From Gemmatimonadaceae bacterium (lineage in GTDB: Bacteria > Gemmatimonadota > Gemmatimonadetes > Gemmatimonadales > Gemmatimonadaceae), in NCBI GenBank assembly GCA_019752115.1, contig JAIEMN010000019.1:1-64000 (forward strand): a stretch of 64,000 nucleotides of DNA. Direction: 5' to 3'. Shown piece by piece: positions 44,473-64,000 of the stretch. The notes below the pieces were generated by a model that was not told where the DNA came from, did not search any database, and saw only the letters and a program-made list of their open reading frames with translations. The position numbers were made by a program, and so were the translations under genes. Positions within the stretch are counted from its first letter, which is position 1, and each line of letters begins with the position of its first letter.

Positions 44473-45273
44473 ATGAGGTCCCCCCGCCCCGCCGGTGCCG
44501 CCGTTGGCCGCCTCGCGTTCGCCCTCGTGACGAGCGCGGTGGTCACCGGCACGCTGTTGACCAGCGCCCGGCCGCTGGCCGCGCAATCACCGGTACCGGC
44601 CGGCCGCCGGCAGATGGTCGGCTATGTCCGCGATGCCAAAGGTGGCCCCATCGAAGGGGTGACGGTGGAGGTGCACGGCCAGAAAGTCCTCACCGATCTG
44701 CGCGGCGCCTTTGCGCTGCTCACCAAGCAGCTCGACACGGCCAGCATCAGCATCAAGCGCGTGGGCTTCGAGCCAATCGACGCGTTCATCACCGCGCGCG
44801 ACGGCATGTGGGACACCGTGGTGGTGCAGCTCGAGTCGTCGATCAACACGCTCGCCGAGGTGACCGTGACCGACGAGTACAGCACGCGCGCCGGCGGCAT
44901 TCGCGGCTTCGAGGAGCGGCGGCGGCTCAAGCTGGGGCAGTACCTCACGCGCGCGGACATTGCCGAACGCGGCGAACAGAAGCTGAGCGAGGTGCTGCGC
45001 ACCCGCAAAGGCGTGCAGGTGGTGCGCGGGCGCGTGCGCTTCGCCGCCTTCACCGGGTCGCGCGGCGGGCAGTGCCAGCCCAACGTCTATCTCGATGGCG
45101 CGCGCGCACCCGGCATGGAAGTGGACGAGATTCTCGCCAACACCGTGCAGGCGATCGAACTCTATCCGTACCTGTCGACGCTTCCGATCGAGTTCCAGAC
45201 CATTGGCGCGCAGACCACGCCCTGCGGCACGATCGTGATCTGGACGCGCGTGCCCAACTCGAAGAGCAAGTAA
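44473..45273 (+). CDS. Secreted carboxypeptidase-regulatory domain plus barrel-less TonB plug domain
   Basis: The 266-residue protein starts at the ATG 44473 and has a signal peptide (to about LTSARPLAAQ). A carboxypeptidase-regulatory-like beta domain follows (MVGYVRDAKGGPIEGVTVEVHG to about residue 130). The C-terminal half resembles a TonB receptor plug: FEERRRLKLGQYLTRADI, LSEVLRTRKGVQVV, CQPNVYLDG, AIELYPYLSTLPIEF and CGTIVIWTR, after which a receptor's barrel would begin; here the protein ends nine residues later. Cys in CQPNVYLDG and CGTIVIWT probably pair. It is a paralogue of the genes at 50542 and 54387, and divergent from the S15 hydrolase. Confidence 0.82.
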   Translation: MRSPRPAGAAVGRLAFALVTSAVVTGTLLTSARPLAAQSPVPAGRRQMVGYVRDAKGGPIEGVTVEVHGQKVLTDLRGAFALLTKQLDTASISIKRVGFEPIDAFITARDGMWDTVVVQLESSINTLAEVTVTDEYSTRAGGIRGFEERRRLKLGQYLTRADIAERGEQKLSEVLRTRKGVQVVRGRVRFAAFTGSRGGQCQPNVYLDGARAPGMEVDEILANTVQAIELYPYLSTLPIEFQTIGAQTTPCGTIVIWTRVPNSKSK

Positions 45274-45301
45274 CACGATCGCGCACCGGCGGTGGCGCGG
45301 G

Positions 45302-48300
45302 TCAGTACCGCACCACCACCTCGCGCTGCTCCGCGGCGACCGGCACGGTGGTCGTCTTGCCTCCCGGGAAGCGCACCCACACCGCGGTCGGTGTGCGCGT
45401 GAGACCGAAGAGCTGCACGGCGCCGTTCTGCGACAGGAAGCCCGACGACGCCTGCACCTCGCGCACCGGCCCCTGCATGTCGCCATACACCACACGCAGC
45501 TGCGTGCCGATGCCATCCGGATTGCTCGCCGGCCCCTGCACGCGTACCCGCAACCCGGGCCTGGCACCGCGATTGAGGAAGAAGCGCGTCGCCGCACCAT
45601 TCTGCGACACGGCCAGATCGAGCCGTCCGTCGCCGTTCATATCGGTGTAGGCCGCGCCGCGCTGGTCGCCATACACGACGAGTCCCGAGCGCTGACCGGC
45701 CATCGGGAGCAGGCCGCCCTTGCCATCGCCGCGCAACAGCAGGCTGCGCCCTTCGTCGTGGCGCGGCACGCCCACCACCGTGGGGAAGAAGTTCTGCGAC
45801 AGGAACAGATCTTCGGCGCCGTCCCCATCGAAGTCGGCAATGGCTGGCGTGAACGACGGCGCCCACTGCGCCTCCGCCGGCAACGGCCGCGCTTCGAAGT
45901 GATCGCCGCGATTGAGGAACAGCAGATGATCGAGCGAGCGAATGCTGAGTGCGCGCGTGTTCGCCGCGTCGGGCCCGAGCACCGTTGGCACGGTCGCCGT
46001 CGCATAGGCCGCAAAGCTCGTGATCCGATCGGTCGCCCCCTTCACCGCCATCCGAACCCGCGCCCAGCTCGCCAGCGGGCGCAGCGCACTGGCCCCGTCC
46101 TGCTGGGCCAGCAGTAACTCGATCTCCCCACCGGCGCCGAACGGCCCGAACGTCACACTCAGCGGCGCCTGCTCGCTCACGTGAAAGCTCGTGTTGCGCC
46201 CCCAGCTCGTGGCCACCAGATCGAGGCGGCCGTCGCCATCCAGGTCGCCGCTGGCGAGACCGTTCCATTCGCTCGTGTACGCCTCGAGCCCCCATGCACT
46301 GGGCGCGGGCGTGAGCCGACCATGGCCGTCGTTGAGCAACAGCACCAGGCTCCCCCAATCGCGCGCGAGCACCAGATCATCGGCGCCATCGCCGTTCACA
46401 TCCGCGAAGAGCGCACTCGACACGAGACCGATCTCGCGCAGCACCGGCATGTTGGTGGTGTCCACCACGAACGCGCCATTCACGTTGCGGAAGAGACCCG
46501 ACGAGGCCGGCACCGGATACGCCATCGGTACGGCTCGCGAGCCCACAAAGAGATCGAGCGCGCCATCGCCATCGACATCGCCCAGCGCGAGCGGACCCGT
46601 ACTGGACGCGTGTGACCCGACAGCGGGTGCGGCGTTGGTCGAGAGCCGCCCGCCGGAGACATCGAGGCGCACCGCCGCCGGCTGCGCGCGCATCAGCGCC
46701 TCATCGCGGAACTCCCACGTGGCCACACCCGCCAGGAGCGATGTGCGCCCACGCTCGGTCATCGCCAGCACGCTGGTATAGTCGGCATTCGCGACCGGTC
46801 CACTCGGCGGCATCGGCGCGAGGCGCCCCTTGTCGTTGCGGAAGATCCCAACGTGCCCGCCCTTCCCGGTGCCCACGATGAGGTCGTCGTCGCCGTCGCG
46901 GTCAATGTCATGCCACGACACGCCGGGACCGAGCTGCGACAGCGCGTTCACGAGCAGGAACTGTCGATCCCAGTCGTCGAACCCGTTCTCGGTGTGGACA
47001 TGCCCACCCAACTGCGCGGTGGCGTCCTCGAAGAGCACCGAATCGGCGGGTACCTGCTCGGCCACGCGCGCCGCGGCCGCCGGTGGCGCACCCTTCTGGG
47101 TGACTTCATACAAGCGGTTCGGCTTCACATGCTCGACCACCGTGCGCCGCCCGTCACGCCACTGAATCTCAAGCGTGCCCTCGCTGCCGGCGCCCATCGC
47201 AAAGCTCTGCGTGTAGTCGCTGTGCGAGAGATAGAGCCCGCCCACACTGATTTCGCGCGTCTGCACCGGCAGGCCGTTCACGCGCAGGGTGAGGCGCGCA
47301 CCCACGGCCCTGGTGTTGGGCGCGTCACCCACGAGGCGCACCGCGAGACGCGGCGCCGTGGCATCGTTGCGCAGCACCAGCGCTGGGGCATCGAGCCGAT
47401 TGATTACCACGTCGAGATCACCGTCACCATCGAGATCGGCGCTGGCCATGCCGTGCGAGATGTCGGCGTCGGTGCCGAAGCGCCACGCGCTGCTGGCGTC
47501 GGCAAAGGTGAGATCGCCGTTGTTGCGGAACGCCACATTGCGCAGCGCGAGGCGCGGGAACTGCCAGCGGATGCGCTGATACGGCACATCCGTGAGACGG
47601 TTCTGCAGCTTCTCCTGCACATCGGCATCCATCACATCCCACAGGTGCCCATTGGCCACCAGGAGATCCGGCCACCCATCGAGATCGACATCCAGAAAGA
47701 GGGTGCCCCAGCTCCAGCCGCTCGCCGCCACACCGGCCGCGTGCGCAAGCTCCGCGAAGGTGCCGTCGCCGCGATTGAGAAAGAGCGAATTGCGCTGCTG
47801 CTGCAGCGGCAGCTCCATCTCGCCGACCTTTTTGGGAAGGGCGGTGTGCGTGGGGAGCTGGGTCTTGAGCCGCGTCGGATCGTTCGCCAGCATGTCGGTC
47901 ACGAACAGATCGAAGCGCCCGTCGCCGTTGATGTCGGCGATATCGTTCCCCATCGACGAGTTGCTCATCTGCCGCAGCGCGCGCCAGTCGGCCAGCTGGA
48001 AGTTGCCGGCGCCGTCGTTCCACCAGAGCTGATCGAGATCTTCGAAGTCGTTGGCCACGTAGAGATCGGGCGCGCCGTCGCCGTTGAAATCGGCAAAGCG
48101 GGCCGACAAGCCGAACGATTCGAACTCCTCGGTATTGGGCGCACCACTCGGCGTGCGAAAGCGGGCCGACGCCATCGGCACCCGGGTGAAGTGCCCGGTG
48201 CCATCGTTCTCGTAGAACTCGTCGGGCTCGGCGCGCTGTGTCATGCGCAGGCCGCCCATGTCGGCGCGCTGCACGAGCTTGTAGTCCTTGCGATGATCCT

Positions 48301-49006
48301 GCACAATCTCGTACTGCTTGGGCGCGATCTCGCGCACCATCTGACTGAACGCGCGCTGCTGCGGCGGAATCGTATCGTCGACGTTGTACGGCTTGTAGTT
48401 CGCGATGAACAGCGACAGCCGTCCATCCCCCTTCACGTCGGCCATGGTGATCGTCGTCGCCCCGCGCCCCACGGTATCGATCCCGAAATCGCGGTGCTCG
48501 GTAAAGCGCCCCTGACCATCGTTCACATAGATCGCGTTCGGGCCGGTGGTGGCCACCACGATCAGGTCGAGATCACCATCTCCGTCGATATCGGCAAACG
48601 CCGAGCCGGTCGCGTGGCGGTCACAGGCGCCCACGCGTGCGAACTTCGTGATGTCCTCGAAGCTCCAGTTGCCGGTGTTGCGATAGAGCGCGCTGCAGCC
48701 GTCAGTGCGGGCGAGAAAGACATCGGGCAGCCCGTCGCCATCCACATCACCCAGCGAGACGCCGCCGCCCTGGCCGAGCTGGCGGTTGTTGAGCAGAATC
48801 TTTTCGCTCGCGGTGTTCTGAAAGCGAATCCCCGTGCTGCGGGGCGCCATGGCGGTGAAGCCCGGCTTGCCCTTGGCCACGGTGAGCGGCTGCCACCGCG
48901 CGGCGCCTTCGGTGGTCCACTCGCCATCCTTGCGGCCACGGCAAGCGGTGGTGAGCACGGCCGTCGCCAACGCGGCGAGCCGTACCGCGCGAGACAGGTT
49001 CCTCAC
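45302..49006 (-). CDS. FG-GAP/VCBS repeat lipoprotein with two ASPIC/UnbV domains
   Basis: The 1234-residue lipoprotein (LAALATAVLTTAC, Cys22) starts with a GTG at 49006 that overlaps the upstream stop (GTGA). It contains many Ca-binding FG-GAP/VCBS motifs, for example DVDGDGLPDVFLA, DIDGDGDLDLIVV, DFNGDGAPDLYVA and DLDGDGDLDVVIN, which likely fold as one or more beta propellers. Two ASPIC/UnbV domains appear: one in the middle (LRVNGLPVQTREISVGGLYL, about 600-665) and one at the C-terminus (VREVQASSGFLSQNGAVQLF to VVVRY). Such CRTAC-like proteins occur with outer-surface enzymes. It is translationally coupled to the vanadium haloperoxidase-like gene and convergent with the plug protein at 44473. 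Confidence 0.9.
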   Translation of the reverse strand: MRNLSRAVRLAALATAVLTTACRGRKDGEWTTEGAARWQPLTVAKGKPGFTAMAPRSTGIRFQNTASEKILLNNRQLGQGGGVSLGDVDGDGLPDVFLARTDGCSALYRNTGNWSFEDITKFARVGACDRHATGSAFADIDGDGDLDLIVVATTGPNAIYVNDGQGRFTEHRDFGIDTVGRGATTITMADVKGDGRLSLFIANYKPYNVDDTIPPQQRAFSQMVREIAPKQYEIVQDHRKDYKLVQRADMGGLRMTQRAEPDEFYENDGTGHFTRVPMASARFRTPSGAPNTEEFESFGLSARFADFNGDGAPDLYVANDFEDLDQLWWNDGAGNFQLADWRALRQMSNSSMGNDIADINGDGRFDLFVTDMLANDPTRLKTQLPTHTALPKKVGEMELPLQQQRNSLFLNRGDGTFAELAHAAGVAASGWSWGTLFLDVDLDGWPDLLVANGHLWDVMDADVQEKLQNRLTDVPYQRIRWQFPRLALRNVAFRNNGDLTFADASSAWRFGTDADISHGMASADLDGDGDLDVVINRLDAPALVLRNDATAPRLAVRLVGDAPNTRAVGARLTLRVNGLPVQTREISVGGLYLSHSDYTQSFAMGAGSEGTLEIQWRDGRRTVVEHVKPNRLYEVTQKGAPPAAAARVAEQVPADSVLFEDATAQLGGHVHTENGFDDWDRQFLLVNALSQLGPGVSWHDIDRDGDDDLIVGTGKGGHVGIFRNDKGRLAPMPPSGPVANADYTSVLAMTERGRTSLLAGVATWEFRDEALMRAQPAAVRLDVSGGRLSTNAAPAVGSHASSTGPLALGDVDGDGALDLFVGSRAVPMAYPVPASSGLFRNVNGAFVVDTTNMPVLREIGLVSSALFADVNGDGADDLVLARDWGSLVLLLNDGHGRLTPAPSAWGLEAYTSEWNGLASGDLDGDGRLDLVATSWGRNTSFHVSEQAPLSVTFGPFGAGGEIELLLAQQDGASALRPLASWARVRMAVKGATDRITSFAAYATATVPTVLGPDAANTRALSIRSLDHLLFLNRGDHFEARPLPAEAQWAPSFTPAIADFDGDGAEDLFLSQNFFPTVVGVPRHDEGRSLLLRGDGKGGLLPMAGQRSGLVVYGDQRGAAYTDMNGDGRLDLAVSQNGAATRFFLNRGARPGLRVRVQGPASNPDGIGTQLRVVYGDMQGPVREVQASSGFLSQNGAVQLFGLTRTPTAVWVRFPGGKTTTVPVAAEQREVVVRY

Positions 49007-50472
49007 GGGGCAGCCTTCGCGCCCAGGCGGGCGGCCACGGCCGCGCCGATGCAGCGCCCCATGCGGAGACCGGCTTCGTTGCTCCACGCGTAATGCAGCC
49101 CGGCGTAAATGCGCGACTGCCCGGCCTCTTCACTCGCCGCGAGGAAGCTCGGGAAGTGGCGCACCGCGTGCCCGATCGAAATGCTCGTGCTGTCGCTGAA
49201 GGGGCCGGCGCCAATGAGGGCGGTGATCGCCGCCGAGGCCGCGCCGGATTGCGTGGAGTGGCCGGAGGGAAATTCGGGGAATGGCGGCGTGGGGATGAGC
49301 GGCTCCCACGTCGGATCGATATGCCGACGAATGAAGGTGCGCGGCCGGAGCGTCATGGTGGCGAACTTCACGCGCCACGCAGCGATGAAGGCGTCGGCCT
49401 GCGCGAGCGCCGTGCCCATCACGAGCCGCACCGCCGCATCCCCGTCGAGATGCCGTTCACTGATCATCTGCGCGGCGATCGACAGCCAGTGCCCCACGGG
49501 GGTGCCCGTCTCACCGGCATTGTCGGCCCAGTAGTACGCGATCTCCTTCTGTTCCGGCGTACGCGCCTGCGTGATGCGATAGGTGTTCGCGTTCTCCCAG
49601 TAGAGGCGCGCGGTGCTGTCGGTGCCGTAATCGGGAGCCGGCCCACTCGGGCAGGTCCCCGTGTCGGTATTCACGAAGCTGCGGAGCTGCCCCCAGAAGG
49701 GCTCGGTGATGCCGGCGATGTTCGCGGCCGGCAGCGTCTTCCCGCCCACGGTCTTCGGCCGGCTCAGGATGAGGCTGCGGTCGCTGGTGTTGGCGGTGCG
49801 CTGCTGGTTGGCCGGGTTGTCGAGCTGGATGACTTCACTCACCGCCGACGTCTGCGTGGTGGCATAGAGCGTCGCCGGCGCATCGTTGATCCAGAGCGAA
49901 TCCCCGGTGGCCGGTGCATAGACCATCGTCCGCGTCTCGGAGAAGTGATCGGTGCGGCTGTACGCCACGAGCGCCCCCCCAATGGCCCGCCCAAGCGAAT
50001 CGGACCGGGCCGCAATCGCGTCGCTCACCCCTTGGGCAGTGCGCGCGGTCCGCAGCGAGTCCGCCAGGCGCCTGAGGGCCGTGCGCGTGGTGGGGAGTGC
50101 TTCCCGCAGCAGGGAATCCAGAACCATCCGCTCGGCGGCCACCGCCACCAGCGTGGGGTCGACATCGCCTGGGGCCGCCGGCGCCGGGAGCGGCGCGAGC
50201 CCCGTCACCACCGTGTGCAGCGGGGTGAGCGCCGGATGGGCCGCCGCCGTGCCGGCGTACAGGGCCATGCTGGCGTACGCCGCGAGGCGCGAGGCCACCG
50301 GCGGCGAAAGGCGTTCCACGCGGATGGTACCGTACAGGGCGTGGACCCACTCCGACACCATGCGGGGGTCCAGATCGGGGGTCGCGGGGCGGCAGCTGGC
50401 CAGCCAGAACGGGGCCGCGCACGCCGCCAGCGTCGCCACGAGGCGACGGGGGGCAACGAGGGGAGCGAACAT
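49003..50472 (-). CDS. Vanadium-dependent haloperoxidase-like PAP2-family lipoprotein
   Basis: The 489-residue protein has a lipoprotein signal ending PFWLASC (Cys27). The C-terminal third holds PAP2/vanadium-peroxidase signatures: KFATMTLRPRTFIRR (oxyanion-binding Lys/Arg region), FPEFPSGHSTQSGAAS (PSGH motif) and SRIYAGLHYAWSNEAG (catalytic His). The N-terminal half is helical, as in vanadium chloroperoxidases. It is likely a secreted or periplasmic enzyme that either oxidises halides or works as an acid phosphatase; the sequence cannot decide which. Its stop overlaps the start of the ASPIC/UnbV gene, so the two are co-translated. It is divergent from the large plug protein at 50542. Confidence 0.9.
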   Translation of the reverse strand: MFAPLVAPRRLVATLAACAAPFWLASCRPATPDLDPRMVSEWVHALYGTIRVERLSPPVASRLAAYASMALYAGTAAAHPALTPLHTVVTGLAPLPAPAAPGDVDPTLVAVAAERMVLDSLLREALPTTRTALRRLADSLRTARTAQGVSDAIAARSDSLGRAIGGALVAYSRTDHFSETRTMVYAPATGDSLWINDAPATLYATTQTSAVSEVIQLDNPANQQRTANTSDRSLILSRPKTVGGKTLPAANIAGITEPFWGQLRSFVNTDTGTCPSGPAPDYGTDSTARLYWENANTYRITQARTPEQKEIAYYWADNAGETGTPVGHWLSIAAQMISERHLDGDAAVRLVMGTALAQADAFIAAWRVKFATMTLRPRTFIRRHIDPTWEPLIPTPPFPEFPSGHSTQSGAASAAITALIGAGPFSDSTSISIGHAVRHFPSFLAASEEAGQSRIYAGLHYAWSNEAGLRMGRCIGAAVAARLGAKAAP

Positions 50473-50541
50473 GCTGTCAATCTGGTCAGGTCTCCCGCGA
50501 GTTGATAGCTTGGGCGAGCCTCCCCACCACAGGTACGCCCC

Positions 50542-53500
50542 GTGATTTTGCGACGCATCCTACCGTCCCTGGTGGTCCTGTTTTCGCTGCTCGCGCCGCA
50601 TGGCGTGCAGGCGCAGCTCTCCGAGGTGCGCGGTACCGTGGTGGACAGCGCCACCGCGGCGCCGGTACCGGCCGCCGTGGTGACCCTCCTCGACGCGAGC
50701 AGCGCCACGCTCGTGCGCACGCTCACCAACGACCGCGGGCAGTATCGCCTCCTCCGCCCGGCTGAAGCGACGCAGATGCGCGTCGTCCGGCTCGGCTTCG
50801 AACCGCAGACCGTGCCGCTCGCGCAAGCCAAGGGGCGCCCCGAAGGTGGGTATACGCTCGACGTCCGTCTCGCCCCGTTCGCGCGCGCCCTGCAGGGCGT
50901 GGACGTCGTGGCGGCGCGCGGATGCGAGCAGCGCGGCAATCAGGGCGCGGCGTTCGTGCTGCTCGACGCCGCGCGCGCCGGGCTCCTCGCCACGGAGGTC
51001 GCGCGGGAGAAGGACCCTCCACGTCTGGTGGTGCTGCGCTTCGAGCGGCTGCTGGATGGCGATGGCATCGAAACGGTGCGTCAGACGGTGCGCGTGGACT
51101 CGTCGGAACAGGCGACCGTCTCCTTCTCGGCCGTACAGACCGCCGCTGACTTTCTCGCGACCGGATTTCGTGGCGGCCGCGCGGGGGACTACATGTTTTT
51201 CAGCCCCGATGCGGGGGTGATTCTCGATGAGCGCTTTCAGGCGGGCTACTGCTTCAGCGTGGCCGCCGCCGACGCCAATCGCGCCACGCAGGTCGGCCTC
51301 CGCTTCACGCCGGCCACGCGGAAGGCGGGGCGCGTGGATATCGACGGCACGCTCTGGATCGACACGGTGGCGCGCGCGCTGAGCGAGATCACGTTCCGCT
51401 ACGTCGGGGTCGAGCCACTCGCCGAAGGGCTGGGCGCCGGCGGGCGCATCGGCTTCCGGTCGTTGCCGAACGGCGTGCCGTTTATCGATCGCTGGCAGCT
51501 GCGGATGGTGGACGCCCCTGCCACCGACCCGGCCGATCCGCGCCCGGGCCCGGCCTTCATCGTGCGCGAAACGGGCGGTGAACTGGCCGAAGCGCGTTGG
51601 CCCGATGGGCGTGTCTGGCACGCCCCGTTGGGGTCGGTGCACATCACGGCGGTGGGCGCCGGCAGTCGCCCGGCCGCGGGGGTCGTGCTGCGGCTGGCCG
51701 GCACCGAGTACCTGGCCACCACCAACGCCGACGGGCGCGCCTCGATGCAGAATCTGCTGCCGGGCCCGTATCGGCTGGTGGTCGATGATCCGTACGTGCG
51801 GAGCATCGGCATGACCATCCCCACCGGAAAGACGTTCACGGCGGTGCGGGGCAGCGCCCTGCTGGCTCGCGTGGAAGTTCAGGGGCCGCTCGTGCTGGCG
51901 CAGTCCGCGTGCAAGCGCACCGACGCCCCCAAGAACAACGAAAGTTGGATTCTGGGCCGAGCCTTCGAAGCCGATGGCAATCCGGCCGCTGATGTGCGCT
52001 GGCAACTGCTGGAAGCCGACAATGGCCGCTGGAAGCCGCGCACCGACATCGGCGTCACCGGCACCGATGGCGTGATCGCGCTCTGTCGCGGGCAGGAGCG
52101 CGGACGCACGGTCGAGCTGACCGTCTGGCGGCCGGGCGCCCGCGACACGGTGCGCGTCCGCAAGGTGCTCGACGGGCCCCTTGAGCTGTTCCCGGCCCGT
52201 CTGCCGTCGGCGCGTCTGGCGCGGAATAGCGGGTCGAGCATCACCATTGCCGGCGTGGTCCGCGACTCGGCGAGCGGCGCCGCGGTGCCCGAGGCGCGCG
52301 TCCACCTGGTCGATACCCCGTTCGAAACGGTCGCCGACGAGGAAGGCCGCTTTGTGCTGGGCGGATTTCCCGCCGGCCGCTATCTCGTGGAGGTGGGAAC
52401 GAAGGCGCTCGATCCACTGGGCATCGTGGCGCGGCGCGACCTCACGCTGCGGGACGGCATGCCATCGCTCACCCTCGGTCCCCCGCAACTCGCCGAATCG
52501 CTGGGCGCAGCGTGTCGCGGCCTGGGCGGCACCGGCTCGAGCCTGATCGTGGGGCGGCTCGCGGCGGCCGGCGATGGCGCCGCGCTGGCCGGCTATCGCG
52601 TCGTCGCCGAGTGGGAGACGGATACCAGCACCCTGCTGCCCACCGACAGCCTCGGGCAGTCTCGCATGGGCGGCTGGATCCGGGCCATCCCCGATCCCAC
52701 CAGTGGGGTCTATCGCCTGTGCGATGCGCCGGTCGGCCGCCGCCTTACGGTGCGCGCCGAGGCGGACACCATGAGCGCCGGTGCGAGCACGCCGCAGACG
52801 CTGGTGCTGGCGCCCAAGGAGCGCGTCGCGCGGCTGGACCTGGCACTGCAGGCCGGCCTGGTGGTCGCGCCCACCTACAGCGGCACGGTGGTGGATTCCG
52901 TGGGCGGCATGCCGGTGGAGGGCGCCGAGGTCACGATCACCGATCTCGGCCGCTCCACGCTCACGAACCGGCGCGGTCAGTTTCGCTTCTCCGGGCTCCC
53001 CACCGGCCCGCATCTCGTCTCGGTGCGCAGCGTGGGGTTTGCGAAGCGCACGGCCACCATCACGCTGCAGAATGCGCGCGCGCTCGATGAGCGCGTATTA
53101 GTGGCGCCGGCGACGGCCCAGAGCCTCGCCGCGGTGGAGATTCGCAGTTCTGGCGTGCCGACCGAGTTCGAGGAGCGGCGCAAGCTGGGGTTGGGCAGCT
53201 ACATCACGCGCCCGCAGCTCGATTCGGCCCGCGGGCAGCGGCTGGGGACCGTGATGGCGATGGTGAAGGGGATGGGCACGGCGCTCTCCAACATGGACGG
53301 TGGCGCGCACGCCTACGTGGTGGGCAAGCGGGCGCCGTCGCACCTGCTGCCGCGTGGCTCGGGGGTGACGGCCGGCCCGGATGGCGCTCGACAGTCGTGC
53401 GGTGTTCGGACCGGCAACATGGCCTACGACAAGGCGAACACCTGCACCTTCACCTTCGACGACATTGCCCAGCAGGGGTACTACTGCCCCACACCAGGCG

Positions 53501-53724
53501 AGCGGGCCCGGGGGATGACGTCCTGTCAGTGTTTCGCGCAGGTGTACCTCGACGACCGCATCATGAACAGCGGGCGGCCGACCGAGCCGTTCGATGTGAA
53601 CACCATCCCGATCGACCAGATTGCCGGTGTCGAGTTCTATCCGTCGCCGTCAAGCACGCCGGCCCGCTACAGCACGCTCAACTCGGTGTGCGGTGTGATG
53701 TTGATCTGGACCCGACGACCATAG
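50542..53724 (+). CDS. Large secreted protein: several carboxypeptidase-regulatory domains plus barrel-less TonB plug
   Basis: The 1060-residue protein starts at a GTG (MILRRILPSLVVLFSLLAPHGVQAQ signal). Carboxypeptidase-regulatory-like domains occur at the N-terminus (SEVRGTVVDSATAAPVPAAVVTLLD), around 570-650 (IAGVVRDSASGAAVPEARVH) and around 775-855 (YSGTVVDSVGGMPVEGAEVTI). A long middle region (about 100-300) contains a cysteine pair and resembles the outer-membrane regulatory proteins of this phylum. The C-terminus has the shared motif: EFEERRKLGLGSYITRPQL, CQCFAQVYLDD, IAGVEFYPS and VCGVMLIWTRRP at the very end. It is the largest of three paralogues and probably heads an operon with the lipoprotein and second plug gene downstream. 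Confidence 0.85.
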   Translation: MILRRILPSLVVLFSLLAPHGVQAQLSEVRGTVVDSATAAPVPAAVVTLLDASSATLVRTLTNDRGQYRLLRPAEATQMRVVRLGFEPQTVPLAQAKGRPEGGYTLDVRLAPFARALQGVDVVAARGCEQRGNQGAAFVLLDAARAGLLATEVAREKDPPRLVVLRFERLLDGDGIETVRQTVRVDSSEQATVSFSAVQTAADFLATGFRGGRAGDYMFFSPDAGVILDERFQAGYCFSVAAADANRATQVGLRFTPATRKAGRVDIDGTLWIDTVARALSEITFRYVGVEPLAEGLGAGGRIGFRSLPNGVPFIDRWQLRMVDAPATDPADPRPGPAFIVRETGGELAEARWPDGRVWHAPLGSVHITAVGAGSRPAAGVVLRLAGTEYLATTNADGRASMQNLLPGPYRLVVDDPYVRSIGMTIPTGKTFTAVRGSALLARVEVQGPLVLAQSACKRTDAPKNNESWILGRAFEADGNPAADVRWQLLEADNGRWKPRTDIGVTGTDGVIALCRGQERGRTVELTVWRPGARDTVRVRKVLDGPLELFPARLPSARLARNSGSSITIAGVVRDSASGAAVPEARVHLVDTPFETVADEEGRFVLGGFPAGRYLVEVGTKALDPLGIVARRDLTLRDGMPSLTLGPPQLAESLGAACRGLGGTGSSLIVGRLAAAGDGAALAGYRVVAEWETDTSTLLPTDSLGQSRMGGWIRAIPDPTSGVYRLCDAPVGRRLTVRAEADTMSAGASTPQTLVLAPKERVARLDLALQAGLVVAPTYSGTVVDSVGGMPVEGAEVTITDLGRSTLTNRRGQFRFSGLPTGPHLVSVRSVGFAKRTATITLQNARALDERVLVAPATAQSLAAVEIRSSGVPTEFEERRKLGLGSYITRPQLDSARGQRLGTVMAMVKGMGTALSNMDGGAHAYVVGKRAPSHLLPRGSGVTAGPDGARQSCGVRTGNMAYDKANTCTFTFDDIAQQGYYCPTPGERARGMTSCQCFAQVYLDDRIMNSGRPTEPFDVNTIPIDQIAGVEFYPSPSSTPARYSTLNSVCGVMLIWTRRP

Positions 53725-53755
53725 TTTTTTGCCACCTTTCTTCTGGAGTGCGTGT

Positions 53756-54358
53756 ATGCGGCCCGTGATCGGTTCTCTTGCCCTGTTGGGGCTGGCAGCG
53801 TTTGCCACGGCGTGCGCGTCGGGCGGCGCCTCGTCGTCGGGCACGGCCTCAAGTGGCGGGGCCGTGGCCCCGGTGCAGACCAGCGGCTCCACGACCCGGT
53901 CCACCACGACCGGCATCGAGGGGGTCGGGCGGCTCACGATCAATCGCACGACGGAAGCCGATGTGGTGACGATCCCCTTCGATGCCGACGCGGTCTTTCG
54001 CATTCTGCCGTCGGTGTATGACTCGCTGGGGATCCAGGTGAACACGGTGGATCCGGCCAAGAAGACGGTGGGCAACTCGGGGTACAAGATCCGGAACCGG
54101 CTGGGCAAGATGCCGCTCAGCATGTACCTCGACTGCGGAGGGAGTTCGCAGATCGGACCGAACGCCGACTCGTATGACGTGTATCTGAGTGTCCTGACGA
54201 CGGTGTCCGCCAACGGCGCGGGTTCGGCCAAGGTGGGCACACTCGTGGACGCCCAGGCTCGGCCGGCCACGTACAACCAGGCCTATAGCCCCTGCTCCTC
54301 CAAGGCGCGCCTGGAAGAGCGGCTCGCCGAGCTGATCACCAAGCGTCTCGCCAAGTAA
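53756..54358 (+). CDS. Small lipoprotein between two plug proteins
   Basis: The 200-residue protein starts at the ATG 53756 (GGAG upstream) and has a lipobox (LLGLAAFATAC, Cys20). The linker is Ser/Gly/Thr-rich. The folded part (about 55-200) contains VVTIPFDADAVFRILPSVYDSLGI and KTVGNSGYKIRNRLGKMPLSMYLDCG, which by pattern resembles BamC-like or similar alpha-beta lipoprotein domains (a helix, then a strand-rich sheet), with two cysteines that could pair. It lies 31 bases after the large plug protein and 28 bases before the next, so it may work with them. Confidence 0.75.
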   Translation: MRPVIGSLALLGLAAFATACASGGASSSGTASSGGAVAPVQTSGSTTRSTTTGIEGVGRLTINRTTEADVVTIPFDADAVFRILPSVYDSLGIQVNTVDPAKKTVGNSGYKIRNRLGKMPLSMYLDCGGSSQIGPNADSYDVYLSVLTTVSANGAGSAKVGTLVDAQARPATYNQAYSPCSSKARLEERLAELITKRLAK

Positions 54359-54386
54359 CGTCACCCGTTTCCCTGCACGAGTCCCC

Positions 54387-55772
54387 ATGTCGTTTCCGCT
54401 GCGGTGTGTTGGTCGCCCCCTGCTCCCCCTGTCGGCGCTGCTGGTTGGCCTGTGGGGATCTACCGCCCGGGCGCAGAAGCCGGTGACGGTCACCGGCGTG
54501 GCGTACGACAGCCTGCGCGGTGCGCCGCTGGCGAACGCCTTCGTCATCCTGACCGAGCGGGGCAAGAGCACGAGCAGCGACGACAAGGGGCGGTTCCGCT
54601 TCGACTCCGTGCCGCCGGGGACGTACACCTTTGCCATGCAGCACGCGGTGTTCGACTCGCTCGGATTGTCGGGGGCCACGACCAAGGCCACCGTGACCGA
54701 CGGCAAGGCACCGGTGGTGCTCGCGGTTCCGAGCTTTGCCACGCTCTGGCGGGCGGCGTGTGGGACGCCGGCGCCGACTGGGCGTGACACGGGCTTCGTG
54801 TACGGCACGGTGCGCGATGCCGCCACGCGCAAGTCGGTGCCGCAGGCGTGGGTCGCTCTCTCGTGGACCGATCTCGTAAAGCTCGATCCGGCCAAGAAGA
54901 GCACCAACGTCACGCAGCGCCGCTACAACAACGAAGTGCAGGGCGACAAGCAGGGCGGCTACGCCATCTGCAACGTGCCGACCGGCTTGCCGCTGGTGGT
55001 GCGCGCCTTCAACGGGGCCAACACGACGCCCTCGGTCACCATGAGTGCCACCAGCGACCGCGTCCGTCGTCTGGATCTGGTGTTGAGCGGGACAACGGTG
55101 GCCGATGCGCAGCGCAAGGGCACCGTGCGGGGCGTGGTGAGCGACAGCGGCGGCCGGGGGATCCGCGATATTCGCGTGTCGATCGGCGAACTCGAGACGC
55201 GCTCCGATCCCGATGGTGGCTTCACGCTGCGGGGCGTGCCCACCGGCACGCGGCAGATCGATGCGGCCGCCGTCGGCTTCAATCCGACGAGTACGGCGGT
55301 GGACGTCTTTGCCGATGATACGGCACGCGTGCAGCTCACGACGTTCCGCCTCAACGCCCTCGATACGCTCAAGATCCGGGCGGTATCGGCCAAGGGGCGC
55401 GTGCGCATCATGGAGTTCGAGGCGCGTCGCGTGCGCGGCTTTGGCAGCTATCTCGACTCGGTCGCCATTGGCAAGCGCGCCACGGTGTCCGCTGCGCTGC
55501 AAGCGGTGCCGGGGCTCACCGTCGAGAACATGACGGCGAATGGCCGCCGCTTCAATCTCTATCTGCCGTCCACCAGCACCGGGCAGTGCATGGCGACGCT
55601 CGTCCTCGACGGCGTGCAGCAGAACGACACGGAAGTGTTCAATACGCTCTCGCCCTCCGATCTGGCAGCGATCGAGGTGTATCAGCAGCGCACCACGGTG
55701 CCGTCGGAGTTCCAGCGCGTGCAGCAGAACTGCGGCGCCGTGGTCGTCTGGACCAAGCGGGCCTTCCGGTAA
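54387..55772 (+). CDS. Secreted carboxypeptidase-regulatory domains plus barrel-less TonB plug
   Basis: The 461-residue protein has a signal (LLPLSALLVGLWGSTARAQ) and three carboxypeptidase-regulatory-like domains: VTVTGVAYDSLRGAPLANAFV (about 31-110), GFVYGTVRDAATRKSVPQAWV (about 137-230) and GTVRGVVSDSGGRGIRDIRVS (about 248-320). The C-terminus repeats the plug pattern: FEARRVRGFGSYLDSV, VSAALQAVPGLTVEN, GQCMATLVLDGVQ, AAIEVYQQRTTVPSEF and NCGAVVVWTKRAFR. It is a paralogue of the proteins at 44473 and 50542. A hairpin overlapping the stop codon ends the transcript. Confidence 0.83.
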   Translation: MSFPLRCVGRPLLPLSALLVGLWGSTARAQKPVTVTGVAYDSLRGAPLANAFVILTERGKSTSSDDKGRFRFDSVPPGTYTFAMQHAVFDSLGLSGATTKATVTDGKAPVVLAVPSFATLWRAACGTPAPTGRDTGFVYGTVRDAATRKSVPQAWVALSWTDLVKLDPAKKSTNVTQRRYNNEVQGDKQGGYAICNVPTGLPLVVRAFNGANTTPSVTMSATSDRVRRLDLVLSGTTVADAQRKGTVRGVVSDSGGRGIRDIRVSIGELETRSDPDGGFTLRGVPTGTRQIDAAAVGFNPTSTAVDVFADDTARVQLTTFRLNALDTLKIRAVSAKGRVRIMEFEARRVRGFGSYLDSVAIGKRATVSAALQAVPGLTVENMTANGRRFNLYLPSTSTGQCMATLVLDGVQQNDTEVFNTLSPSDLAAIEVYQQRTTVPSEFQRVQQNCGAVVVWTKRAFR

Positions 55773-60939: not shown

Positions 60940-63900
60940 CTAGAAGCGCGTCTGGATGGTGAACGTGTACGTGCGGAGCGTCGGGAAGCCGAACGCGTCC
61001 ACCTGATTGACGAGACCCGAGCTGGCCTGACCCGCGCCGCTTACACCCACTTCGGGATCGAGGCCGGTGTACTTCGTGAACGTGAAGATATTGCGACCGA
61101 TCAACTGCAGCGTGACGTCGTTCATCCCAGCGATCTTGCCGAGTTGGTACGTGACAGCGAGTTCGCGAAGCTTCGCGTACGTGCCCTTCTCGGTATTCCA
61201 GTTGTTCGGACCGAGGAGGTCATAGAAGCCGCCTGTGCCTGCGCCCTCGGAGCCACCGACGCGCCAGCCGTAGCCAAGCGGCTTCGCTGTCTCGACGGAC
61301 CGACCGCCCATGTCGAAGTAGTTGTTGGCGAAGTCGAGCAGCCCCCAACCGGCGCCCTGATTCTGGATGTAGTGGCCCACGGTCCCATCGAGCAGCCCGT
61401 ACAGCGAGAGCTTCTTGTAGGTGATCGTGTTGTTGAAGGCGAAGCGGAAGCTGGGCAGGGTGTTGCCCAGGATGCTCGTGTTGCCCGTACCTTCGCCCTT
61501 CTCACCGCGCAGGGGGCGGTCGACGATCGGGTGACCAAACTGAAGGGGATAATTCCAGGGCGAATTGGCCGCCGAGAGCTTCGTCTGCCAGAGGTTCTTG
61601 GTGATGCCGTCGCGCCAGCTGTTGCCATCGCCGACCCACACGACCCACCCCTGGTCGTTGACCTGATAGGCCTTGCCGTCGCCGCACTGCGCCTGCACCG
61701 AGGCCGGCATGTCGCCACACGACTTGTAGAACTTGCGACCCCAGATGCCGCCGTAACGATTCACGGGGTAGCCGTTGCTCTTGTCCGTCCGCGCCGTGAA
61801 AAGGAACAGCGAGCCGGTGCCCTGCGCCGTGCCGGCGGAGGTGAAGTACTCCGGCATGAACAGCTCGGTGATGTACGTGCGGTTCCGATCGAACGTACCG
61901 CGCGTATTCCACGAGAAGTCCTTCCGGCTGATCACCGGCAGGTTGAGCGCGACTTCGAACGTCTTGTTCTGCAAGGTACCGGCATTCTGCCACTTGCTTG
62001 AGAAGCCGAGCGAGGCCGGCGTCGGCACCTGCAGAATCTGGTTCGTCGTGAGCGACTGGGCATAGGTCAGTTCCACGCCGAGCTTACCGAACAACGTGAA
62101 ATCCGAGCCGAATTCGTTCTCGGTGGTCGTTTCGGGCTTGAGCTGCGAGTTACCGGCCTGGCCGAGTGAGCAGCCTGACGCCGCGCAGGAGTAGGTCTCG
62201 TACTGCGCCGTGAAGCGCGGGGAGTTGCCGGCCGACCCGCGCGAGGCGCGGATACGCATATCCGACACCTTCGGGAGGCTGAACCACGACTCTTCCGAGA
62301 GACGCCACACGCCGGAGAGACGACCAAAGTTCGCGAAGCGGTTACCGGCACCGAAGAGCGATGAGCCGTCGCGACGGAACGTGCCGTCGACGATGTACTT
62401 GCCCTTGTAGTCCAGGTTTGCACCCGCAATGGCACCCACATTCTTGACGAGCTGGCTGCTGGACGACGTGGAGAAGTTCGTGGTGGTGTTGGACAGCGTG
62501 TACACATCCTTCACCACGTACTGCTCACCGCTCGACCCGTTCGAGAGGATGTAGTCACGATCCATCAGACCGCGGATGTTCAGCTTGCCATTCAGGTCGG
62601 CCATCAGCTGCTTGCGGAACGTACCAGAGACATACGCGTTCATGCTCTGGCGCGTCTGGTTATCGATGCTCTGGTTTCCGTTATTCGTGGCCGGATCCAG
62701 CGTCTGCGTCCGATAGCCCTTCGAGACGTAGGAATTCGAGATGCGGTCGCGATTGTCAAAGCTGTACAGCGCTTCGAACGAGGCCCACGGTGCCGGTGTG
62801 TAGGTGGTGTTGATCGACCCCTGCCAGCGGTCCGCATTGGTATAGGCGTTGAAGTACTGCTGCTGATACAGGAAGCTCCCGCCGCCGTTGCCAGTCGGGC
62901 GGAAACCCGTGCCACCACCACGGAGAATCGGACGACCGAGGGTGTCGACGGCGGTATAGTCCGTGCCCGGTGTCGCACCGCGCAGGAGCTGGCCGAAAAT
63001 GCTGCCCTGACCGCCACCCGAACGATCGTCGACCGTGCTGCGGTTGAAGAGCGAGCTGACCGACACCGTGAGGTTCGGGCGTACATCGTAGTCGAGGTTG
63101 ACGCGGGCGCGGCGCTGCTGCGCACCGTTGAGACCCTTGATCGCGCCACCGTCGTTCGTGTACGATCCGGTCACGAAGTAGCGCACGTTGCCCACGCGGC
63201 CGTTCACATCCACCGTATTCAGCTGCGTCGGGCTATTCGTCGCGACCTGCGCCAAACCGTTGTAGTACTGGCCCGGCCAGATGCTGGACTGGTACACGTT
63301 CAGCAGCTCGCCACCCGAGGCCGCCGGCGCGTTCCACTGAATGTTCTGCTGCGTGCGCGTGGTATCTGCGTTGACGTTGTTGATGCGCAGGATTTCTTCC
63401 ATCCAACCAGTCGTACGCGAGCAGCTGGAAACCGCACCAGAGCCAGCAATGCAGAACTTCTTGCCCGTTTCGTCCAGCTGCAGCGGGTGATTCACCGGCT
63501 GAATGAGGCGGGACGAATTGAGGTCGGAGGTGCCGTACTCAATGCGGGCCCCGACGCGCGTTTCGTTGCGCGTCGCACCACGCTTGGTCTTGATGTTGAT
63601 CACGCCGTTGGCCGCCTGCGCGCCGTAGAGCGAGGCACCAGCGGCACCCTTCACGACTTCCACCGACTCGATGTCGAGACCGCCGATTTCGGCGAGCGAC
63701 TGATTGCGGAGGATCGTGCCGTCGACGATGATCAGCGGGCCCGTGCCACGGCCGCTCGCGTTGATCGACGTCGGGCCGCGGAGCATGATTTCCGGCGAGG
63801 CGCCCGGGCGACCGCTGGTCTGGGCCACGCGGAGACCGGCGACCTTACCCTGCAGCGCCGTTACCGGGTTCAGCGCGGGGACCGGAATGTCCTCGGCCGT

Positions 63901-64000
63901 CACACGACCGACGGCGAAGGCCACCTTGCTGCGCTCGGTGCCTTCCATGGAGCCGGAGACGACGACTTCGCTGAGGCGATTGACGTCCTTCTCGAGCGAG
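60940..64000 (-). CDS. SusC/RagA-family TonB-linked outer-membrane receptor (5' end outside window)
   Basis: At least 1020 residues, open at the right edge: the frame continues upstream of the ATG at 63948 as LEKDVNRLSEVVVSGS, the usual junction between the carboxypeptidase-regulatory domain and the plug, so the signal peptide and first domain are missing. The plug shows NPVTALQGKVAGLRVAQTSG, LIIVDGTILRNQSLAEI, IESVEVVKGAAGASLYG and ANGVINIKTKRG. The barrel follows to the C-terminal LRTYTFTIQTRF, ending in Phe as outer-membrane barrels do. It transports large ligands using TonB energy together with SusD encoded 12 bases downstream. Confidence 0.96.
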   Translation of the reverse strand, partial: SLEKDVNRLSEVVVSGSMEGTERSKVAFAVGRVTAEDIPVPALNPVTALQGKVAGLRVAQTSGRPGASPEIMLRGPTSINASGRGTGPLIIVDGTILRNQSLAEIGGLDIESVEVVKGAAGASLYGAQAANGVINIKTKRGATRNETRVGARIEYGTSDLNSSRLIQPVNHPLQLDETGKKFCIAGSGAVSSCSRTTGWMEEILRINNVNADTTRTQQNIQWNAPAASGGELLNVYQSSIWPGQYYNGLAQVATNSPTQLNTVDVNGRVGNVRYFVTGSYTNDGGAIKGLNGAQQRRARVNLDYDVRPNLTVSVSSLFNRSTVDDRSGGGQGSIFGQLLRGATPGTDYTAVDTLGRPILRGGGTGFRPTGNGGGSFLYQQQYFNAYTNADRWQGSINTTYTPAPWASFEALYSFDNRDRISNSYVSKGYRTQTLDPATNNGNQSIDNQTRQSMNAYVSGTFRKQLMADLNGKLNIRGLMDRDYILSNGSSGEQYVVKDVYTLSNTTTNFSTSSSSQLVKNVGAIAGANLDYKGKYIVDGTFRRDGSSLFGAGNRFANFGRLSGVWRLSEESWFSLPKVSDMRIRASRGSAGNSPRFTAQYETYSCAASGCSLGQAGNSQLKPETTTENEFGSDFTLFGKLGVELTYAQSLTTNQILQVPTPASLGFSSKWQNAGTLQNKTFEVALNLPVISRKDFSWNTRGTFDRNRTYITELFMPEYFTSAGTAQGTGSLFLFTARTDKSNGYPVNRYGGIWGRKFYKSCGDMPASVQAQCGDGKAYQVNDQGWVVWVGDGNSWRDGITKNLWQTKLSAANSPWNYPLQFGHPIVDRPLRGEKGEGTGNTSILGNTLPSFRFAFNNTITYKKLSLYGLLDGTVGHYIQNQGAGWGLLDFANNYFDMGGRSVETAKPLGYGWRVGGSEGAGTGGFYDLLGPNNWNTEKGTYAKLRELAVTYQLGKIAGMNDVTLQLIGRNIFTFTKYTGLDPEVGVSGAGQASSGLVNQVDAFGFPTLRTYTFTIQTRF

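Follow-up and report, generated by a model that had tools for sequence, protein, structure and literature searches.

Background

Among described proteins, those closest to the genes discussed here are the SusC/RagA receptors, in which a carboxypeptidase regulatory domain (CpD, or NTE; PDB 9hfj), a TonB box and a plug precede the barrel. In the SusC protein BT1763 (PDB 6z9a) the proven TonB box, VDEVVV, stands directly after the PF13715 NTE (PMC7782687), and one paper implicates the CpD domain in the interaction with TonB. FepA is a case in point for the plug alone: in isolation its plug is reported to be unfolded, and disulphides within the plug stop transport (PMC11658791). BamP, of the Flavobacterium johnsoniae BAM complex, is a periplasmic protein with a loop that enters BamA. 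Here we study a window of 64,000 nucleotides from a Gemmatimonadaceae bacterium (positions 1 to 64,000 of contig JAIEMN010000019.1, assembly GCA_019752115.1), in which three genes, called P1, P2 and P3 below, encode plugs that have no barrel behind them.

The three proteins belong to a family in which a CpD/NTE domain, a TonB-box-like segment and a plug are arranged and folded as in the SusC/RagA receptors, but which differs from them in lacking the barrel, in carrying an extra helix with the motif FExRR and a pair of cysteines, and in ending on CGxxxxWT[KR] instead of NGVINIKTKRG. The best profile match in the PDB, the TonB-linked outer membrane receptor 9gbc_A (E 6.5e-17), aligns with the family over a stretch that runs from the CpD domain through the final strand of the plug, yet has a barrel and, in the aligned part, no cysteine pair. 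BamP is likewise exported and periplasmic, occurs as several paralogues per genome and probably has a CpD-fold N-terminal domain; it is a looser parallel than the periplasmic half of SusC. The C-terminal domain of the energy transducer TonB (PF03544) is the last domain in one sub-clade of the family, where, unlike in TonB itself, it stands behind a plug in an exported protein in which no membrane anchor was recognised. A literature search, with most subscription journals outside its reach, found no description of such proteins.

We find that P1, P2 and P3 represent a large monophyletic family of proteins, predicted from sequence and a fold model to be exported, with one or more CpD domains, a TonB-box-like linker, a plug with an N-terminal FExRR helix, no barrel and a co-conserved cysteine pair. 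By its domains the family belongs with Plug and CpD proteins; because the barrel is absent, it is not a TonB-dependent transporter. The domain set that it keeps is everything of SusC that faces the periplasm, namely the CpD/NTE domain, a TonB-box-like LDTVxVxA in a flexible linker, and the plug.

Results and discussion

Three plug proteins without a barrel

The features of the three genes, and of the receptor in the window used for comparison only, are as follows.

44473(ATG)..45273, forward strand: P1, 266 amino acids; signal peptide, one CpD domain, TonB-box-like linker, plug
44617..44832, forward strand: P1 CpD/NTE domain (Pfam PF13715/PF13620; VIA-align against the SusC NTE 9hfj)
44851..44868, forward strand: P1 TonB-box-like segment LAEVTV (placed as the BT1763 TonB box; AlphaFold2 pLDDT <50; family consensus)
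44905..45270, forward strand: P1 family-specific FExRR helix and plug domain (Pfam Plug 24.5 bits; VIA-align against 6z9a_B)
45073..45075, forward strand: P1 first conserved cysteine, Cys213 counted from 44437 (19/19 genome paralogues)
45223..45225, forward strand: P1 second conserved cysteine, Cys263 counted from 44437, opening CGTIVIWTR (19/19 genome paralogues)
50542..53724, forward strand: P2, 1060 amino acids; signal peptide, CpD domain, unnamed conserved region, CpD repeats, TonB-box-like linker, plug
53125..53142, forward strand: P2 TonB-box-like segment LAAVEI
53164..53721, forward strand: P2 FExRR helix and plug, with a cysteine-containing insert (conserved cysteines 53530-53532 and 53689-53691)
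54387..55772, forward strand: P3, 461 amino acids; signal peptide, CpD repeats, TonB-box-like linker, plug
55359..55376, forward strand: P3 TonB-box-like segment LDTLKI
55413..55769, forward strand: P3 FExRR helix and plug (conserved cysteines 55587-55589 and 55731-55733; Pfam Plug 18.8 bits, below cut-off)
60940..63999, reverse strand: SusC-type TonB receptor with barrel (TIGR04056 426.9 bits; plug end NGVINIKTKRG, no cysteine)

The original prediction took the genes at 44473, 50542 and 54387 to encode secreted proteins ending in a TonB receptor plug. The genes are real, lie on one strand and encode exported proteins, and a leave-out profile and, for P1, a fold model agree on the C-terminal plug. 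Built from the 16 other paralogues of the genome, without P1, P2 and P3, the profile matches the three with E-values (for Z=5000) of 2.8e-29, 5.1e-28 and 3.3e-31, respectively. The Pfam Plug model (PF07715) recognises P1 at 24.5 bits against a cut-off of 23.9, falls below it for P3 and finds no match in P2, with scores reaching 46.4 bits among the paralogues of the genome. As proposed, CpD domains lie in front of the plug, at least one scoring above the Pfam cut-off (PF13620/PF13715) in each of the three. When the family profile is compared with the plugs of the genome's barrel-bearing receptors, it aligns over nearly its full length, from the TonB box to the last strand, with a probability of 98.2 and E 2.9e-14. 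The full SusC/RagA model (TIGR04056) gives 24.8 and 32.0 bits over its N-terminal part only, below its cut-off of 368.25, and the BamP model (NF053692) 15.1 bits, below its cut-off of 230.

An AlphaFold2 model of P1 from 57 sequences (pLDDT 88.7) places the same domains. In VIA-align comparisons its residues 8-91 superpose on the NTE of SusC 9hfj (Z 12.3, root-mean-square deviation (rmsd) 1.5, 78 aligned) and residues 114-224 on the plug of BT1763 (6z9a_B; Z 10.3, rmsd 2.8, 102 aligned); the plug also matches those of Fiu (Z 9.2, rmsd 2.8, 103 aligned) and BT2264 (Z 8.2, rmsd 3.3, 109 aligned). Foldseek by itself returned mostly CpD matches, and it was VIA-align run on the Foldseek list that revealed the plug. 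A helix at residues 99-116, bearing FEERR, sits ahead of the plug, and its FExRR motif is not visible by eye in the barrel plugs of the genome.

The chain was said to stop where a barrel should start, and it does: between the second cysteine and the end of P1, P2 and P3 there are 10-15 residues. The only barrel match (PF00593) in the window is the SusC gene at 60940 itself, and none follows P1, P2 or P3. The plug of P2 has an insert with additional cysteines ahead of the first conserved one. Residues ~110-350 of P2, between CpD domains, form a conserved region without a Pfam name that is also seen in L016, L018 and L087:583-2262; it occurs in a plug-less protein too. Between P2 and P3 (53729-54358) lies a gene for a lipoprotein-like protein without a Pfam match, possibly on one transcript with them.

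A single, expanded family

Where three paralogues had been described, the 5.17-Mb genome holds at least 19, all sharing the motifs that had been named from the window, far beyond chance. Against the barrel plugs of the same genome the 19 form a single clade (SH-aLRT 99), within which P1, P2 and P3 are not each other's closest relatives and therefore do not make a simple tandem array. A survey of 200 genomes of the phylum, Gemmatimonadota as judged by record titles, found family matches in 178, with up to at least 20 per genome, and only weak matches outside the class. Some members stand on records titled Kuenenia (L085, L110; CALQGY02) and Thermoanaerobaculia (L081, L087), which are probably mis-binned Gemmatimonadota contigs.

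The chain ends at most 25 residues past the second cysteine in 131 of the 139 members examined; the exceptions include L010 and L054, with a TonB C-terminal domain (TonB_C) as a tail, L040/L083 and L103, which end in a hydrophobic helix, and L042, with a barrel-like tail. The short helix after the plug in L083 and L103 could be a membrane anchor. An inventory of the genome, assembled from searches and retrieved stretches of sequence, gave 49 matches to the Plug hidden Markov model and 31 barrel (PF00593) matches, and all 31 barrels share a reading frame with a plug, so that no plug-less barrel was found. Sequence profiles, fold and this inventory together support the reading of a plug without a barrel, and the single origin, expansion and conservation of the family support the earlier suggestion of a standalone module with a job of its own.

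The cysteine pair

Both cysteines are present in all 19 paralogues of the genome, and the barrel plugs there have no cysteine in the mature plug. In a first set of loci 143 sequences have both and none has one, full-length members having both or neither; four complete matches lack the pair, of which two are receptor plugs and the other two small plugs of a different sort. In a second set of 101, fetched by profile and not by the CG pattern, 94 have both and six neither (in one of the six the first cysteine column is an alignment gap), and a single cysteine occurs only in one cut-short sequence. The six consist of five members fused to TonB_C and one more, in or grouping with the TonB_C sub-clade. 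On a tree built without the two cysteine columns the cysteine state changes twice, each time as a pair, which puts the joint losses at two or more. The number of cysteines per plug is 2, 4 or 6 in 138 of 138 sequences and even in 93 of 94 of the second set.

Joint conservation, joint loss and even parity make a disulphide between the two conserved cysteines very likely, as the original prediction had it, and the genome encodes VKOR, a member of a disulphide-forming enzyme family. The further claim that the bond holds the plug closed does not stand, since there is no channel to close; the bond more likely keeps the isolated plug folded. As the isolated FepA plug is reported to be unfolded, a staple makes sense for a free plug, and by analogy with FepA it would help such a plug and harm a gate.

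A TonB-box-like linker and a fusion to TonB_C

Between CpD domain and plug the family keeps L-D-T-V-x-V-x-[AG] at the place that matches the BT1763 TonB box. The L column is hydrophobic in 100 percent of sequences and the two V columns in 99 and 89 percent, and L-D-T-V-x-V-x-A is the best-conserved part of a linker that is otherwise variable. In the P1 model this part is disordered, residues 92-96 (AEVTV) being the sole stretch with a pLDDT <50.

In one sub-clade PF03544 follows the plug, with both domains over their cut-offs. By hand count, 67 matches reach the end of TonB_C, in 56 genomes of one family, and the fusions form one clade on the tree. One paralogue of the genome studied has a tonB-like gene 13 bases downstream (L018:2871-3578; G000:C51, ~26.9-27.6 kb), whose product has one likely membrane helix. 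TonB_C matches in this genome number nine. The original prediction suggested a partner or inhibitor of TonB channels, or a secreted receptor; with the TonB-box pattern kept and the TonB_C fusion conserved, the evidence favours the TonB side.

Other barrel-less plugs and odd tails

A second, independent kind of barrel-less plug is a 194-residue open frame (L160:1528-2109; G000:C22, ~69.0-69.6 kb) with a complete SusC-type plug (61.4 bits), a lipobox-like AAGAC ahead of it and an end at the last plug strand. A third is an M56 (BlaR1-type) peptidase with a C-terminal plug (L161:31-1578; G000:C33), which on the tree groups with SusC plugs, outside the Cys-pair family. In genome G013, L042:1072-2385 and two paralogues have a plug followed by ~145 residues that by eye resemble a small outer-membrane barrel; the full-length form was found in that genome only. 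Related small lipoprotein-like plugs (L117:5552-6016, L124:4988-5491) are encoded next to SusC and SusD genes, not far from a gene for a Cys-pair plug.

What the free plugs may do

We suggest, tentatively and with a probability of about 0.4, that the family consists of periplasmic TonB-binding modules, disulphide-stapled in place of a barrel, that act as TonB decoys or adaptors. The proteins would be exported by Sec and stay soluble in the periplasm. The two cysteines would link the DG strand with the final strand of the plug and so replace the barrel as a clamp on the latter, leaving the isolated plug folded, and the retained CpD domain and TonB box would make binding by TonB, or by a TonB-like C-terminal domain, possible. 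Such proteins would not be pores; they could buffer the few TonB proteins or, through variable CpD arrays, tie TonB domains to periplasmic or outer-membrane partners, and in the conserved sub-clade with plug and TonB_C fused, a single chain would hold the two sides of the Ton contact. It is the kept periplasm-facing part of SusC together with the TonB_C fusion that tips the balance to a TonB-linked role. A more far-reaching form of the proposal, a pore-free Ton branch across the whole class, in which TonB grips many stapled periplasmic plugs by a genuine TonB box and some are TonB_C-fused, all forming a soluble interaction network, we hold to be doubtful.

Several observations weigh against the decoy or adaptor proposal. 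Most paralogues have no recurring TonB, SusC or SusD neighbour: SusC/SusD neighbours occur at ~10 of 82 loci, four of which (L117, L119, L124, L127) appear to be a single orthologous locus. Beyond local synteny, of which an FG-GAP/ASPIC gene next to P1 orthologues is an example, partner genes do not recur. The tonB-like gene after the C51 paralogue looked like part of a conserved plug-tonB operon, which we rejected when no such gene was found beside 8 orthologues. The signal peptides behind the periplasmic location were recognised by a crude scan in only half of the members, and a short V-rich strand can be conserved for folding alone. Finally, the staple is not always needed, since the five TonB_C-fused members and one other do without either cysteine.

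One alternative is secreted or surface modules for ligand binding or scaffolding, with the plug fold reused as a stable binding domain, disulphide-bonded and placed last in a CpD array, and the TonB-box pattern a relic or structural strand. In several members (P2, P3, L016, L018) a long CpD array does end in the plug, disulphides suit exported proteins, and no TonB-system neighbour is conserved. The linker pattern is, however, kept family-wide while its surroundings vary, the TonB_C fusion is conserved in 56 genomes, and neither a surface anchor nor a sorting signal was recognised; we regard this alternative as unlikely. A plug acting in trans, BamP-like, on other outer-membrane barrels, perhaps as an inhibitor, is improbable. 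It can draw on BamP, which puts a segment into a barrel, on the CpD fold of the F. johnsoniae BAM chain 9n2d_E, probably BamP (Z 9.0, rmsd 2.8, 79 aligned), and on the one genus with the barrel-like tail; that tail has no Pfam match, though, and a stapled plug fits poorly with a gate that must rearrange, as the loss of FepA transport with intraplug disulphides illustrates. Improbable, too, are periplasmic sensor or signalling modules with a role like that of the STN domain of FecA-type receptors. The M56 protein ending in a plug indicates that a sensor can carry a barrel-less plug, but its plug lies with those of SusC, and neither sigma/anti-sigma nor M56 genes were seen as recurrent neighbours of the family.

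The remaining explanations would keep the proteins within the receptors. Numerous plug-only chains could be halves of split receptors, plug and barrel being made as two chains; since all 31 barrel matches of the genome lie in plug-holding frames, a split receptor is very unlikely and we rejected it. That they are decayed receptors, whether truncated pseudogenes or genes with a frameshifted barrel, has nothing for it besides the missing barrel and a negligible probability. The next genes follow directly and hold no barrel match, so a frameshifted barrel downstream, on which the original prediction would have foundered, was rejected. The single clade with a support of 99, its occurrence in most genomes surveyed in the phylum (178 of 200), the end point common to 131 of 139 members and the family-specific helix and cysteine pair already refute decay for the family as a whole.

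Conclusions

The plug is best known for gating TonB receptors, and here it appears as a natural, expanded family of free plugs with what is very likely a built-in way to stay folded. The family offers a soluble model of how TonB grips and pulls a plug, and a way to probe the purpose of the CpD/NTE domain. Recognising it would keep annotation pipelines from counting such genes as receptors, and it hints at work of the Ton system beyond uptake in a widespread phylum.
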